Below are positions 13,532-47,155 of a DNA stretch of 64,000 bases, one piece after another. The notes under the pieces were generated by a model. That model saw only the letters and a list, made by a program, of their open reading frames with translations. It did no database searches and was not told where the DNA came from. The translations under genes and the position numbers were made by a program. The stretch's first letter is position 1, and every line of letters begins with the position of its first letter. Origin of the DNA: Candidatus Blastococcus massiliensis AP3 (GTDB lineage Bacteria > Actinomycetota > Actinomycetes > Mycobacteriales > Geodermatophilaceae); the NCBI RefSeq assembly GCF_000582785.1, contig NZ_HG931173.1, positions 929,387 through 993,386 on the forward strand, given 5' to 3'.

Positions 13532-14074
13532 TCACACCGCGCGGCGGTACTCCGGCACCTGCGGCAGCGGCGTCGACCGGGCGGCGGCCAGGACCATCTG
13601 CGGCGAGCGCGGCAGGCCACGGCGGGTGCACAGCCGCAGCGCCCGCGCCCCGGTCAGCACGTCGGTCTCCGGCGGGACGACCAGCAGGTCGGCGCGCGCG
13701 TTGCCGCCGTTCCAGGTCAGGCAGACCACCTGCGGATCCATGCTGCGGAACCCGCCGGTGCGCACCACGCGGTCGGCGACGACGAGCTTGCGCTCCGCCG
13801 GCTGCCAGGCCTCCAGGGAGTAGGTGAACCGCTCGACCCGGACACCGCGCCGGTCGAGCTCCGCGATCAGCTCCGGCAGTTCGACCTGCAGGTCGCGGCT
13901 GCGCGGGAACCAGGCGCCGTCGAACGCGGAGTTCCCGTCGCCGGCGCCGTCCCGCAGGCTCACCCGCACATCGATGCCGCCCCGGAACCTGTTCTCCACC
14001 GGAGCCGTACGGGTGATCGTCGTCAATGCGCTCGGCCGCCTCTCGTGCTCTCGTCCCCCGGGGTCATGACCCAT
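13532..14074 (-). CDS. DUF5994-like protein
   Basis: The core sequence GAWFPRSRDLQVELPELIAELDRRGV matches the actinobacterial DUF5994 pattern (G-A-W-W/F-P-R-S-R-D followed by ELP). No membrane segment or known active site is visible, and function is unknown. The start is uncertain. ATG at 14074 gives 180 residues but begins with a Gly/Arg-rich stretch; a TTG at 14026 gives 164 residues starting LTTITRTAPVENRF and may be nearer the real start. It lies downstream of typA in the same direction, separated by the palindromic element at 14196-14254. Confidence 0.62.
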   Translation of the reverse strand: MGHDPGGREHERRPSALTTITRTAPVENRFRGGIDVRVSLRDGAGDGNSAFDGAWFPRSRDLQVELPELIAELDRRGVRVERFTYSLEAWQPAERKLVVADRVVRTGGFRSMDPQVVCLTWNGGNARADLLVVPPETDVLTGARALRLCTRRGLPRSPQMVLAAARSTPLPQVPEYRRAV

Positions 14075-14195: not shown

Positions 14196-14254
14196 CGAGA
14201 TCTGCACAGTGGCCCCCATCCGAGGCGCTGATGAGGGCCACTGTGCAGATCTCG
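14196..14254 (-). repeat. Palindromic intergenic element, copy 1
   Basis: A 20-bp perfect stem (14196-14215 with 14235-14254) continues, after one C-A mismatch, as a 4-bp CATC/GATG stem around a 9-nt loop. The outer arm begins CGAGATCTGCACA. A second copy with the same design is at 46206-46263 in the opposite orientation. Here it lies 17 nt after the typA stop, and in that direction is followed by CCCTTTTC, so it may end typA transcription. Confidence 0.85.
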
Positions 14255-14271: not shown

Positions 14272-16164
14272 TCAGGAGGGCTTGGGCTTCTTGTTCTTGG
14301 CCTTGCCGCGCTCGGTCTGGTCGAGGATCACCTTGCGGATGCGGACGGTGGCCGGGGTGACCTCGACGCACTCGTCCTCGGCGCAGAACTCCAGCGCCTG
14401 CTCCAGGTTCAGCACCCGCGGCGGGATCAGCCGCTCGAGCTCCTCGGAGGTGCTCTTGCGCATGTTGGTGAGCTTCTTCTCCTTGGTGATGTTCACGTCC
14501 ATGTCGTCCGGACGGGAGTTCTCACCGACGATCATGCCCTCGTAGACCTCGGTGCCCGGCTGCACCATGAGCGAGCCGCGCTCCTGCAGCGAGAACATCG
14601 AGTACGTCGTCGCCACGCCCTGGCGGTCGGCGACCAGCGAGCCGGTCGGCCGGGCACGCATGTCCCCCAGCCACGGCTCGTAGCCCTCGAGGTTGTGGTT
14701 GAGGACGCCGGTGCCGCGGGTCTCGGTGAGGAACTCGGTGCGGAAGCCGATGAGGCCGCGGGACGGGACCATGTACTCCATCCGCGCCCAGCCGGTGTCG
14801 TGGTGCACCAGGTTCTCCAGCCGCGCGCGACGGGTCGCCAGCGCCTGGGTCAGCGTGCCGACGTACTCGCCCGGGGTGTCGATGGTGACGCGCTCGACCG
14901 GCTCGTGCAGCTTGCCGTCGATCTCCTTGGTGACGACGGTCGGCCGGCCGACGGTGAGCTCGAACTCCTCGCGGCGCAGCTGCTCGACGAGGATGGCCAG
15001 CGCCAGCTCGCCGCGGCCCTGCATCTCCCACGTGTCGGGGCGGTCGGTGGGCAGCATGCGCACCGAGACGTTGCCGACCAGCTCCTGGTCGAGGCGGTTC
15101 TTGATCAGGCGGGCGGTGAGCTTCTTGCCCGACTTGCCGGCCAGCGGCGCGGTGTTGATGCCGATGGTGATCGAGATCGACGGCTCGTCGACGGTCAGCG
15201 GCGGCAGCGGGCGCGGGTCGTTCGGGTCGGCGAGCGTGTCGCCGATCATGACGTCCTCGATGCCGGCGATCGCGACCAGCTCACCGGGACCGGCGCTCTC
15301 GGCCGGCGTGCGGGTGAGGCCCTCGGTGACGAGCAGCTCGGTGATCTTGACGTTCTTGATCGTGCCGTCGGTGCGGCACCAGGCGACCTGCTGGCCGCTC
15401 TTCATGGTGCCGGAGTGGATGCGCAGCAGCGCCAGGCGGCCGAGGTAGGGCGAGGCGTCGAGGTTGGTGACCTGCGCGCGCAGCGGCTCCTCGGCGTCGT
15501 AGACCGGCGCCGGGATGGTGTCCAGCAGCGTCTTGACCAGCGGACCGAGGTCCTCGCTGTCGGGCTCCGAGCCGTTCTCCGGGCGGGTCAGCGAGGCCTT
15601 CCCGCTGCGACCGCTGCAGTAGACGATCGGGAACTCGAGGGCGTCGGCGTCGAGGCCGGCGTCCTCCATGAGCTCCATGAACAGCTCGTAGCACTCGTCG
15701 ACGACCTCGGCGATGCGCGCGTCGGCGCGGTCGGTCTTGTTGACCGCGAGGATGACCGGCATCCCCTTGGCCAGCGCCTTGCGCAGCACGAAGCGGGTCT
15801 GCGGGAGCGGGCCCTCGGAGGAGTCGACGAGCAGGCAGACGCCGTCGACCATCGACAGGCCGCGCTCGACCTCGCCACCGAAGTCGGCGTGACCGGGGGT
15901 GTCGACGATGTTGACGACGACGGGGTTGCCGTTCTCGTCGGCCAGGTGGATCGCGGTGTTCTTGGCGAGGATGGTGATGCCGCGCTCACGCTCGAGGTCC
16001 ATCGAGTCCATGACGCGGTCCTGCGTGGAGTCGTTGTCCGTCCCCTCGCCCTTGGCGCGCCCGAGGGCACCTGCCTGGCGGAGGAGGGCGTCGACCAGGG
16101 TCGTCTTGCCGTGGTCGACGTGAGCGATGATCGCCACGTTGCGCAGGTCGTCGCGAGTGGGCAT
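14272..16164 (-). CDS. typA: Translational GTPase TypA/BipA
   Basis: This 630-residue protein has the elongation-factor-like GTPase domain with G1 AHVDHGKTT (14-22), G2 RGITI, G3 [14 protein letters not shown] and G4 NKTDR, followed by the EF-G-like domains and the TypA-specific C-terminal domain. TypA binds the 70S ribosome and aids 50S assembly and growth under stress or cold. The ATG at 16164 has GAGG about 11 bases before it; a GTG four codons earlier lacks such a site. It appears to be a single-gene unit ended by the palindromic element. Confidence 0.96.
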
Positions 16165-16262
16165 GCGGAAGGGCACCTCAGGGTGTTCGGGGAAACCGCT
16201 GCGTCGGCTCGCGGCATCTCGTGAAACGGCCGCCGGCCCGGCGACCTTCCCAATCTACGCGC

Positions 16263-19770: not shown

Positions 19771-21510
19771 ATGACCGCCACACAGCAGACCACGACGTCC
19801 GCGGCCGCCAGCTGGCCGCCGGGGCTGCCCCGGTCGCTGGAGTACCCCGCGGTGCCGGTCGGCTCGATCCTCCGCGCGGCGGTCCGCAGGTGGGGCGACG
19901 AGGAAGCGTTCATCGACCACGACCTCCCGCTCACCTACACCGAGATGGGCGCCCGCGCGCACGCGGTCGCGAACTGGCTGGCCGACCACGGCATCGGCCG
20001 CGGCGACGTCGTCGCCGTGCACATCCCGAACTGCCGCCAGTACGTGCCGGTCTACTACGGGATCCTGCTGGCCGGGGCCACCTTCTCCCCCACCAACCCG
20101 CTCCTGCCGGCGGCCGAGCTGGCCGCCCAGCTCACCGACGCGGGCGCCACCGCCGTCGTCACCTGGGACCTGGTGCTGCCGCTGGTGCGGACCGCGCTGG
20201 ACGCGACGCCGGTGCGGACCGTCATCGTCACCGGTGAGGCGCACACCCTCGACTTCGCCGCCCGCCTCGACGTGCAGGACGGCGACGTCGACCTCGCGGA
20301 CCTGCTGACCGGCGACCCGACCGACCGGCACCTGGACGCCGGCATCGACGTCGACAGCGATCTGGCGCACCTGGCCTACACCGGCGGCACGACCGGCGTC
20401 AGCAAGGGCGTGGAGCTCCTGCACCGCAACGTGATCACCAACGTGCTGCAGTCGGTCTGCTGGACCACCGGCAGCGTGCCCGAGCTGGACGAGCACGGCG
20501 ACGTCACCATCCGGAAGGTGGTGGGCGACGACGAGTACCCGCTGGCCCCGGGCGAGGGCCGGCTCATCAACCTCACCCCCTGGTTCCACGCGATGGGCGT
20601 CGTCGGCTACCTCAACGGGATGGTCATGGGCGGCACGACCGTCGTGATCCACCAGCGGTTCGACCCGGTCAGGTACGTCGAGGACATGCAGCGCTACCAG
20701 GTCACCTCGATCGGCGGCGCGCCCCCGGTCTTCGTGGCCCTCCTGCAGGTGCCGGCCTTCCTCGAGGGCGATTGGTCGGGCATCCGCGGCGTGTCCAGCG
20801 GCGCCGCTCCGCTGCCGGTCTCCCTCATCGAGCGGCTGGGGAAGCTGCTGCCCAACGCCACGATCGGCGAGGGCTACGGCCTGACCGAGGTCACGATGAT
20901 GGCCACGAGCAACCCGTCGTTCCTCTCGGGCACCCGCAAGCCCGGGACCGTCGGCGTGCCGTGCTTCGACACCGAGATCAGCATCCAGCCGCTGGGCGGC
21001 GGCGAGCCGCTTCCGCAGGGCGAGCGGGGCGAGGTGTGCATCCGCGGTCCGCAGGTCATGCGCGGGTACGCCCACCGCCCCGAGGCGACGGCGGAGGTGA
21101 TCGACGCCGACGGCTGGTTCCACACCGGCGACGTCGGGATCATCGACGAGGACGGCTACCTGGCGATCGTCGACCGCACCAAGGACATGCTGCTCTACAA
21201 GGGCTACAACGTGTTCCCCCGCGAGCTCGAGGAGATCCTGTTCGGCGTCCCGGGCGTCGCCGGTGCCGCCGTCGTCGGTCGTCCCGACGAGGAGGCCGGG
21301 GAGCTGCCGGTCGCCTATGTCGTCCGCAAGGGCGACGACGCGGGCGCCGCGCTCACGGTCGAGTCGGTCATGGCGACGGTCAACGACAAGGTCACGCACT
21401 ACAAGCGGCTGCGGGACGTCGTCTTCATCGACGCCATCCCGGTCTCGGCCGCCGGCAAGGTGCTCAAGCGCGAACTGGCCGCCAAGGAGCGGGAGAAGGT
21501 CGGCGGCTGA
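19771..21510 (+). CDS. AMP-dependent acyl-CoA synthetase/ligase
   Basis: This 579-residue enzyme carries the ANL-superfamily signature YTGGTTGVSKGVELLHRNV (about 203-221), the GEGYGLTEVT motif and the hinge region DGWFHTGDVGIIDEDGYLAIVDRTKDM. The C-terminal catalytic Lys is in SAAGKVLKRELA (near 566). It makes an acyl-adenylate and then the CoA thioester, most likely of a medium- or long-chain fatty acid. AAGGA five bases ahead favours the ATG at 19771 over 19765. A strong hairpin follows the gene. Confidence 0.9.
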   Translation: MTATQQTTTSAAASWPPGLPRSLEYPAVPVGSILRAAVRRWGDEEAFIDHDLPLTYTEMGARAHAVANWLADHGIGRGDVVAVHIPNCRQYVPVYYGILLAGATFSPTNPLLPAAELAAQLTDAGATAVVTWDLVLPLVRTALDATPVRTVIVTGEAHTLDFAARLDVQDGDVDLADLLTGDPTDRHLDAGIDVDSDLAHLAYTGGTTGVSKGVELLHRNVITNVLQSVCWTTGSVPELDEHGDVTIRKVVGDDEYPLAPGEGRLINLTPWFHAMGVVGYLNGMVMGGTTVVIHQRFDPVRYVEDMQRYQVTSIGGAPPVFVALLQVPAFLEGDWSGIRGVSSGAAPLPVSLIERLGKLLPNATIGEGYGLTEVTMMATSNPSFLSGTRKPGTVGVPCFDTEISIQPLGGGEPLPQGERGEVCIRGPQVMRGYAHRPEATAEVIDADGWFHTGDVGIIDEDGYLAIVDRTKDMLLYKGYNVFPRELEEILFGVPGVAGAAVVGRPDEEAGELPVAYVVRKGDDAGAALTVESVMATVNDKVTHYKRLRDVVFIDAIPVSAAGKVLKRELAAKEREKVGG

Positions 21511-45684: not shown

Positions 45685-46161
45685 TCAGCGGCGGCCCTTC
45701 ACGTACCGGCCGAACGCCTTCTGGATCTCGCGGCGCGAGTCGCGCTCGGCGAGGTCGTGCCGCTTGTCGTAGGACTTCTTGCCCTTCGCGAGCGCGAGGG
45801 TGGCCTTGACCTTGCCGTCCTTGAAGTACAGGTCCAGCGGGACGAGCGTGAGCCCGCCCTCCTTGATCTTGCCGAGCAGCTTGTCGATCTCGCTGCGGTG
45901 CATGAGCACCTTGCGCTTGCGGCGAGGGGCGTGGTTGGTCCAGGTGCCCTGCACGTACTCGGGGATGTGGACGTGCTGGAGCCACACCTCGCCGTCGTCG
46001 ATCGAGGCGAAGCCGTCGACGAGCGAGGCCCGGCCGGCCCGCAGGCTCTTCACCTCGGTGCCGGTGAGCACCAGGCCCACCTCGAAGGTGTCGAGGATCG
46101 AGTAGTCGTGCCGCGCCTTCTTGTTCTGGGCGATGAACTTGCGCCCCTGTTCCCGCGGCAT
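45685..46161 (-). CDS. smpB: SsrA-binding protein SmpB
   Basis: The 158-residue protein has all SmpB features: [33 protein letters not shown], the OB-fold core, and a basic tail [25 protein letters not shown]. It binds the tRNA-like domain of tmRNA and carries it to stalled ribosomes. It lies downstream of ftsE-ftsX in the same direction, as in mycobacteria, with the palindromic element between ftsX and smpB. Confidence 0.97.
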
Positions 46162-46205: not shown

Positions 46206-46263
46206 CGAGATCTGCACACTCGCCCGCATCAGCGGCCGGATGAGGGCGAGTGTGCAGATCTCG
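46206..46263 (+). repeat. Palindromic intergenic element, copy 2
   Basis: A 20-bp perfect stem (46206-46225 with 46244-46263) continues, after one G-A mismatch, as CATC/GATG around an 8-nt loop. Compared with copy 1 at 14196-14254, the arms differ at two positions (ACAGTG versus ACACTC) and both changes are compensated on the opposite arm. It lies seven bases after the ftsX stop and 45 bases ahead of smpB. Confidence 0.85.
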
Positions 46264-46270
46264 ACCGGAA

Positions 46271-47155
46271 CTACAGGCGGACGTACAGGCGCAGCGTCAC
46301 GTAGGCGGCGACGCCGGCCAGGCCGACACCGGCGGCGGCGATGATCGGGCTGATGAGGGCGATCTGCCCCCAGTCGACCGGCGGGATGATGCCGGCCTTG
46401 ATCGGCCCGGACAGCGTCCGGTCGACGAACAGGATCTTGGTCAGCACCAGTCCGCCGACGGCGAGCAGCGCGCCGATCAGGCCGGCGACGGCGGCCTCGA
46501 GGATGAACGGCAGCTGCGTGTACCAGCGCGAGGCGCCCACCAGCCGCATGATGTTCGTTTCGTTGCGGCGGTTGAACGCGGCCAGCTGGATGGTGTTGGA
46601 GATCAGCAGCAGCGCCGCCAGCGCCTGGACCACCGCCACGGCGATGGTGGCGTTGCGGGCCCCGTTGAGCAGGCTGAACAGGCGGTCGAGGAAGTCACCC
46701 TCGTCGCGGACCTGGTCCACGCCGTTCTCGCCGTTCGGGAACTGCTCGGCGATGACCGGGTAGCGCTCGGGGTTGATCAGCTCGACGCGGAAGCTCTCCG
46801 GCAGCGCGTCCGGCGGCGTGTTCTGCACCAGCTCGGGCTGCTGGCTGAACTGCTGCTGGAAGCGCTCGTAGGCCTCGTCCTTGTTCTCGTAGATGTAGCT
46901 CTTCACCTCGGACGAGGCGTCCAGCTTGGTCTCGATGGCGAGGCGCTGCTCCTCGGTCACACCCTCGGCGAGGAAGATGGAGACCTGGACCTTGTCGTAG
47001 TAGATCTCCTTCATGTCGGAGATCATCCCGGCGATGAGCAGGCCGGTGCCCATGAGACCGAGCGAGATGGCCGTCGTCAGGATCATCGCGACCGTCATGG
47101 TCAGGTTGCGACGCAGCCCGGTGGCCACCTCGGAGAGCACGAAGTTGACGCGCAT
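46271..47155 (-). CDS. ftsX: Cell division ABC transporter permease FtsX
   Basis: The 294-residue protein has an N-terminal cytosolic stretch (VLSEVATGLRRNLTMTVAMILTTAISLGLMG), one helix, an extracellular domain (about 50-165) and three more helices, the topology of FtsX. With FtsE it transmits ATP hydrolysis across the membrane to activate peptidoglycan hydrolases at the septum. It is 53 nt after ftsE. Confidence 0.95.
   Translation of the reverse strand: MRVNFVLSEVATGLRRNLTMTVAMILTTAISLGLMGTGLLIAGMISDMKEIYYDKVQVSIFLAEGVTEEQRLAIETKLDASSEVKSYIYENKDEAYERFQQQFSQQPELVQNTPPDALPESFRVELINPERYPVIAEQFPNGENGVDQVRDEGDFLDRLFSLLNGARNATIAVAVVQALAALLLISNTIQLAAFNRRNETNIMRLVGASRWYTQLPFILEAAVAGLIGALLAVGGLVLTKILFVDRTLSGPIKAGIIPPVDWGQIALISPIIAAAGVGLAGVAAYVTLRLYVRL

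Follow-up and report, generated by a model that had tools for sequence, protein, structure and literature searches.

Dispersed intergenic palindromes linked to a dedicated gene are known from the REP/RAYT systems of gammaproteobacteria, in which the TnpA-REP gene is flanked by two palindrome copies, gene and palindrome co-evolve, and palindrome copy number is tied to the cognate gene (PMC2817692, PMC3686654). By the class definition, a REP is a palindrome of 20-40 bp with a GTAG or CGTC tag at one end (PMC3733652). Related features occur in the EDxHD/Vsr-like free-standing homing endonucleases such as I-Bth0305I (reviewed in PMC6083498), whose genes lie at sites uninterrupted in relatives; in actinobacterial intrinsic terminators (rho-independent or tractless), which are GC-rich hairpins just past stop codons and often common to convergent genes; in the AbiE type IV toxin-antitoxin systems, with inverted repeats near the gene and AbiEi proteins that bind 23-bp inverted repeats (PMC7319586); and in MITEs, ERIC and Correia repeats, which are short non-coding dispersed palindromes. 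MTES_1575, a Vsr-like REase that is related, is mentioned for other reasons in a HEPN survey (PMC3710099).

The locus described here combines several of these features. The window, the whole stretch of 64,000 nucleotides that was analysed (C1:929387-993386 of the 3.87-Mb genome of a Blastococcus-like soil bacterium of the Geodermatophilaceae), holds two hairpins with the following neighbours:

14196-14254, no strand: palindromic element copy 1, solo, GAGATCTGCACA dialect, 59 nt
14272-16176, minus strand: typA; element 1 begins 17 nt 3' of its stop
13532-13999, minus strand: uncharacterised gene, the next downstream of typA on the same strand
46206-46263, no strand: palindromic element copy 2, solo, GAGATCTGCACA dialect, 58 nt, between ftsX and smpB
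46271-47155, minus strand: ftsX; element 2 begins 7 nt 3' of its stop
45685-46161, minus strand: smpB; its start is 44 nt from element 2

Both hairpins stand where the original prediction had placed them, and its 17-nt distance between element 1 and the typA stop is exact. The architecture that it had described, a 20-bp outer stem with one mismatch, a CATC/GATG inner stem and a short loop, is seen in both elements, and the differences between their arms (ACAGTGG in copy 1, ACACTCG in copy 2) are matched by compensation on the opposite arm. RNA folding of the two elements gave -49 to -53 kcal/mol (z = -8 to -10), with none of 200 shuffled sequences folding as well. On the 3' side of typA, the hairpin of about 20 relatives is an ordinary GC-rich one, lying 5-20 nt past the stop in most of them; element 1 occupies the place of this terminator hairpin and is followed by CCCTTTTC. 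A weak covariance-model match elsewhere in the window (20139-20196, 18 bits) lacked the conserved arms and was judged to be chance.

A covariance model built from 65 family members detected 31 copies in the genome (62 hits, each copy being found on two strands), of which 25 have GAGATCTGCACA arms, some of them degenerate in one arm, and six have CATGCGAAC arms, this second-dialect arm being given as CGARNCATGCGAACTCGTGG. The genome contains 40 occurrences of the 13-mer arm, of which 32 lie within 16 perfect two-armed copies, whereas a reversed control pattern had no occurrence. The family was also found in many Geodermatophilaceae, and therefore the possibility, raised with the original prediction, that only these two copies exist does not hold. 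The palindromes are near-perfect hairpins of 57-65 bp, and those of the window's dialect measure 57-59 bp and end in CGAG...CTCG. In an alignment of 65 copies drawn from many Geodermatophilaceae, double-sided changes were seen at 12 of the 27 base pairs, and none of 500 shuffles reached the observed covariation score. The stem is selected for pairing. Changes in the inner stem are compensated, and the outer 12 bp are near-invariant in sequence, partly by construction since the search pattern fixed nine bases per arm; this near-invariance means that pairing alone does not explain the arm sequence. A reading of the arms as DNA uptake sequences was rejected, as the copies are too few and nearly all occur as paired arms. 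Literature searches with the arm sequence returned matches on unrelated subjects only. Two further observations concern related palindromes. In Microbacterium and other actinomycetes (L057, L065, L066, L097 and L145), nested palindromes carry GATCTGCACA twice per arm, and a similar arm thus recurs with a distant DUF559 protein. In three species, elements in a shared neighbourhood (L014 at 1945-2002, L087 at 4451 and L067 at 236) are predicted to lie inside genes, which may reflect gene mis-prediction or real in-gene copies.

The elements are concentrated at gene 3' ends. With genes called by a codon-usage gene finder, the median distance to the nearest stop codon was 7-8 nt and that to the nearest start 52-62 nt (31 own and 50 foreign copies). 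Copies were enriched in convergent intergenic regions (31 of 76 copies, compared with 32 of 237 regions in the background; p=1e-6) and depleted in divergent ones. In G007, a palindrome dialect unrelated to these follows the same stop-proximal rule. Like intrinsic terminators, the elements present a GC-rich hairpin shortly past the stop codon. Of 54 elements found in other species, 16 adjoin a gene that also neighbours an own element, indicating that sites recur; this fits hotspots but long vertical retention as well.

Palindrome pairs about 1 kb apart enclose a single gene encoding a protein of about 280 aa. Its C-terminus is a DUF559 domain (PF04480, E 2e-9 and 4e-9 for two own copies), which is Vsr-like (PD-(D/E)XK), and its N-terminus matches AbiEi antitoxin models at 5e-16; in a defence library, the protein matched AbiEi and ZorE-like entries. 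Two complete palindrome-DUF559-palindrome cassettes, of two dialects, lie outside the window:

C1:1125159-1126205: complete cassette (L013), nuclease gene at C1:1125323-1126147
C1:854833-855889: complete cassette (L184), CATGCGAAC dialect, paralogous nuclease gene at C1:854999-855805

The window's genome has nine DUF559 genes, five with same-dialect palindromes on both sides, three with a palindrome on one side, a status that holds at the threshold used, and one with none detected. The five doubly flanked genes have one dialect each: GATCTGCAC, CATGCGAAC, ACCGTTGAACC, GGACTTTCGG and GATCACCACC. Across Geodermatophilaceae, matched palindromes were present at both ends of 42 of 79 DUF559 loci but of only 2 of 348 control genes similar in length to DUF559 genes (p=1e-33). 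No matched palindrome pair was detected at the other 37 of the 79 loci, some of which are degenerate, while others may belong to different families. Flanking geometry is regular: the downstream palindrome usually starts <20 nt past the stop, and at nearly all loci the upstream palindrome has its end 924-1045 nt ahead of the stop, roughly 70-110 nt before the start of the nuclease gene. In 17 of 17 clade-1 cassettes (for example L334), the upstream palindrome is followed at once by a CTGTGGAC / CTGTGGACGRCGCC motif, which none of 27 own solos has and which marks an inner boundary of the cassette. The TGTGGAC core of the CTGTGGACGRCGCC motif resembles a DnaA box, and the motif could be a promoter, a boundary or a replication-linked signal. 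Paired GGACTTTCGGTACCGAAAGTCC palindromes were also observed four times within 400 kb of G017 C1 (L314-L333), and palindromes of this kind stand on either side of one DUF559 gene in the window's genome (L338).

In the 42 flanked proteins, S-x2-E, D, E-x-D-G, H and D are invariant, except that the second D of E-x-D-G is kept in 95%. An AlphaFold model from a three-sequence alignment was usable for the nuclease domain only and poor elsewhere (mean pLDDT 51). Foldseek placed the homing endonuclease I-Bth0305I first for this domain, the one part in which the model is confident, with a probability of 0.97 but an E-value of 0.09; by sequence, the domain matched a solved endonuclease-like protein, 3hrl (E 8e-4). 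Of the genomes sampled, 197 of 297 in the class and all 69 in the family have DUF559. Matched flanks are not confined to this family, being seen also in Microbacterium azadirachtae (L066) and, in a further family, in G212 (L363). Viral contigs encoded no relative of the nuclease and plasmids only four weak ones, and phage or plasmid carriage is thus unsupported. In the open-access literature, to which the search was confined, no publication linked DUF559 with palindromes.

Nuclease and palindrome vary together. Between genomes, similar proteins come with similar palindromes (Mantel rho 0.40, reached in none of 2000 permutations): one protein clade is associated with CGAG...CTCG types only, like the window elements, and another with GGCATRGGAAGC and related types. 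Genomes with a clade-1 gene flanked by GATCTGCAC hold 2-46 two-armed copies (n=15, median 11), whereas the median is 0 in genomes without such a gene (n=40, p=1e-7); these counts include cassette-flanking copies where both arms are perfect. Exceptions were G057, with 16 two-armed GATCTGCAC copies and no clade-1 nuclease at E<=1e-40, and G015, G017 and G025, with 11 GATCTGCAC copies each and clade-1 genes of other dialects. G057 may be explained either by gene loss or by mobilization by another nuclease. The four exceptions together indicate that solos outlive the gene, and that gene loss must be assumed.

Individual sites were then compared among relatives. The ftsX-smpB gap holds a hairpin in many relatives, with an arm that differs by genome: a GATCTGCAC solo in the window's genome and in G110, G035, G038, G032, G057, G040 and G049; GCGACGAAC or close variants in G004-G006 and G025; CATGCGAAC in G007 and G019; and GATCGGCG in G017. 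No palindrome was found in this gap in G015 and G033. In G060, the ftsX stop is followed by 5 nt, a palindrome, a DUF559 gene, a second palindrome and smpB, the cassette being of the same GATCTGCAC dialect as the solo copy 2 of the window. A DUF559 gene also stands here in G016, G100, G094 and G106, in the orientation opposite to that of G060, and coordinates suggest one in G091 and G092 as well. The gene has a palindrome on each side in G016, G060 and G106 and on one side only in G094; in G100 both detected palindromes are on the same side. Cassettes in both orientations are what insertion into a symmetrical palindrome predicts. A second site, between the genes for an acyl-CoA dehydrogenase and an aldo-keto reductase, is occupied by a cassette in the window's genome and in G017, and by solos of two other dialects in Blastococcus sp. 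URHD0036 (L136) and G007. At both sites the gene stands at a place that is uninterrupted in gene-free relatives, as is typical of homing, and we infer that the palindrome is the recognition site of the nuclease. Among 66 GATCTGCAC elements, there was no excess of 3-7 nt direct repeats that would represent a target-site duplication. Apart from these palindromes, the ftsX-smpB gap of two genera (L265 in G048 and L269 in G018) holds another conserved structured sequence, GGACCCCGT-CTCCT...GGCGAGCCTCTG-ACGGGGCC, possibly a known RNA.

These comparisons bear on whether the palindromes serve the host in the first place, as terminators or mRNA 3'-end hairpins under concerted evolution, with the nuclease genes as incidental hitch-hikers, an explanation that we regard as unlikely. 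It would account for copies lying 7-8 nt past stop codons, for the enrichment in convergent regions, for the co-varying inner stem and for an element at typA in the place that an ordinary GC hairpin has in about 20 relatives, with CCCTTTTC after it. It predicts neither the matched flanks of DUF559 genes, nor a dialect linked to protein clade, nor a copy number linked to the gene; pairing alone would not call for the near-invariance of the outer 12 bp, and the ordinary terminators of the same genomes are unlike one another. The simpler view that the elements are host terminators only was rejected, as the arms keep their sequence and follow the nuclease gene.

The AbiEi-like N-terminus, matched at 5e-16, raises the question of whether the palindromes are operators of a repressor, the upstream copy autoregulating the nuclease gene and the dispersed copies forming a regulon. 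AbiEi family proteins repress their own promoters via inverted repeats, and the upstream copy lies at a suitable place, roughly 70-110 nt ahead of the start. However, nearly all dispersed copies are at 3' ends (7-8 nt to the stop and 52-62 nt to the start), divergent promoters are depleted, the second flanking copy stands past the stop codon, and solo and cassette alternate at one site, all of which makes an operator role very unlikely. A role in defence or in self/non-self marking, with the enzyme attacking DNA and the chromosomal palindromes marking or protecting the host, is highly improbable. The defence-library matches to AbiEi and ZorE-like entries and the active-site residues intact in all flanked copies are what it would lead one to expect, but the cassette holds a single gene, without AbiEii or another partner, and that gene would be mobile into palindromes in either orientation, which is unexpected for a defence locus.

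The reading that we favour is mobility. The window elements are quite likely the non-coding solos of a palindrome system that is mobile in a REP/RAYT-like or homing-like way and is built on an unrelated nuclease. At the level of sequence, the data document dispersal, the stop-proximal rule, twin flanks, nuclease-palindrome co-evolution and a copy number dependent on the cognate gene, and they indicate that empty site, solo palindrome and full cassette interchange at one locus in either orientation. Three natural comparisons, at ftsX-smpB, at the acyl-CoA dehydrogenase site and of copy number with the gene, support movement. DNA binding, cleavage and transposition would be the activities of the system, as judged from these patterns.

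The autonomous unit would be the cassette of about 1 kb, consisting of a palindrome, a CTGTGGAC-type motif, the AbiEi-like and DUF559 nuclease gene and a second palindrome; for the window's dialect in this genome, the cassette at C1:1125159-1126205 would be that unit. Every nuclease lineage would have its own palindrome dialect, the arm sequence of which may be read by the AbiEi-like N-terminal domain. The Vsr-like nuclease would then cut at or next to the palindrome, as duplex, cruciform or hairpin, and repair from another copy would spread palindromes and carry the gene into them, as in homing. The hairpin may replace the terminator of the host gene or act as one, and sites past stop codons would be tolerated because the hairpin can serve as a terminator.

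The original prediction had offered a REP-like mobile palindrome, a terminator or a protein-bound hairpin as readings. All three lead in the right direction, given the dispersal, the location at gene 3' ends and the replacement of terminator hairpins. The TnpA-REP partner did not materialize: a profile search for the Y1 transposase (PF01797) had no match in the genome, and the same search was positive in control genomes, such as E. coli. The likeness to REP/RAYT extends to dispersed intergenic palindromes, a dedicated gene between two copies, co-evolution and gene-tied copy number, here with a different gene. Unlike REP/RAYT, the enzyme is AbiEi-like with a DUF559/Vsr-like nuclease and not a Y1 HUH transposase, the palindromes are longer near-perfect hairpins without a GTAG or CGTC tag, and the system is actinobacterial, with the cassette in both orientations at one palindrome site. 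Since the defining enzyme and tag are absent, the system is an analogue of REP/RAYT and not a member. With the EDxHD/Vsr-like homing endonucleases it shares the occupation of sites uninterrupted in relatives, and its nuclease fold may be similar, as the fold search suggests, but its apparent target is its own short dispersed palindrome and not a conserved gene, its protein has an AbiEi-like N-terminus, and there is no intron or intein. Intrinsic terminators, in turn, lack what the outer arms show here, sequence conservation inside each dialect and a link to a nuclease gene. From the AbiE systems, which likewise combine an AbiEi-type domain with inverted repeats close to the gene, the present system differs in that the C-terminus is a nuclease and the repeats are at both gene ends and dispersed; no AbiEii (DUF1814) toxin gene lies next to the AbiEi-like gene, a single gene standing between the palindromes in L013, L184 and G017. 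In contrast to MITEs, ERIC and Correia repeats, no target-site duplication was found, and the cognate gene is not a DDE transposase.

The matched enzyme-plus-palindrome sets have the look of mobile DNA of a kind not described before. We lean towards a hitherto undescribed class of mobile elements in actinobacteria, in which a nuclease of Vsr/EDxHD type spreads the palindrome of its own dialect, and sometimes its own gene, between gene-end sites, swapping out terminator hairpins, as an analogue of RAYT/REP that arose independently from a restriction-like nuclease. This suggests two origins of the REP/RAYT lifestyle, the second from an unrelated nuclease, and also that mobile palindromes are able to take the place of transcription terminators. 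DUF559 proteins thereby gain a testable candidate substrate, their own palindrome, and dozens of protein-palindrome pairs make a natural data set for decoding how the AbiEi-like domain reads DNA. For Geodermatophilaceae, the system would explain a population of repeated hairpins.
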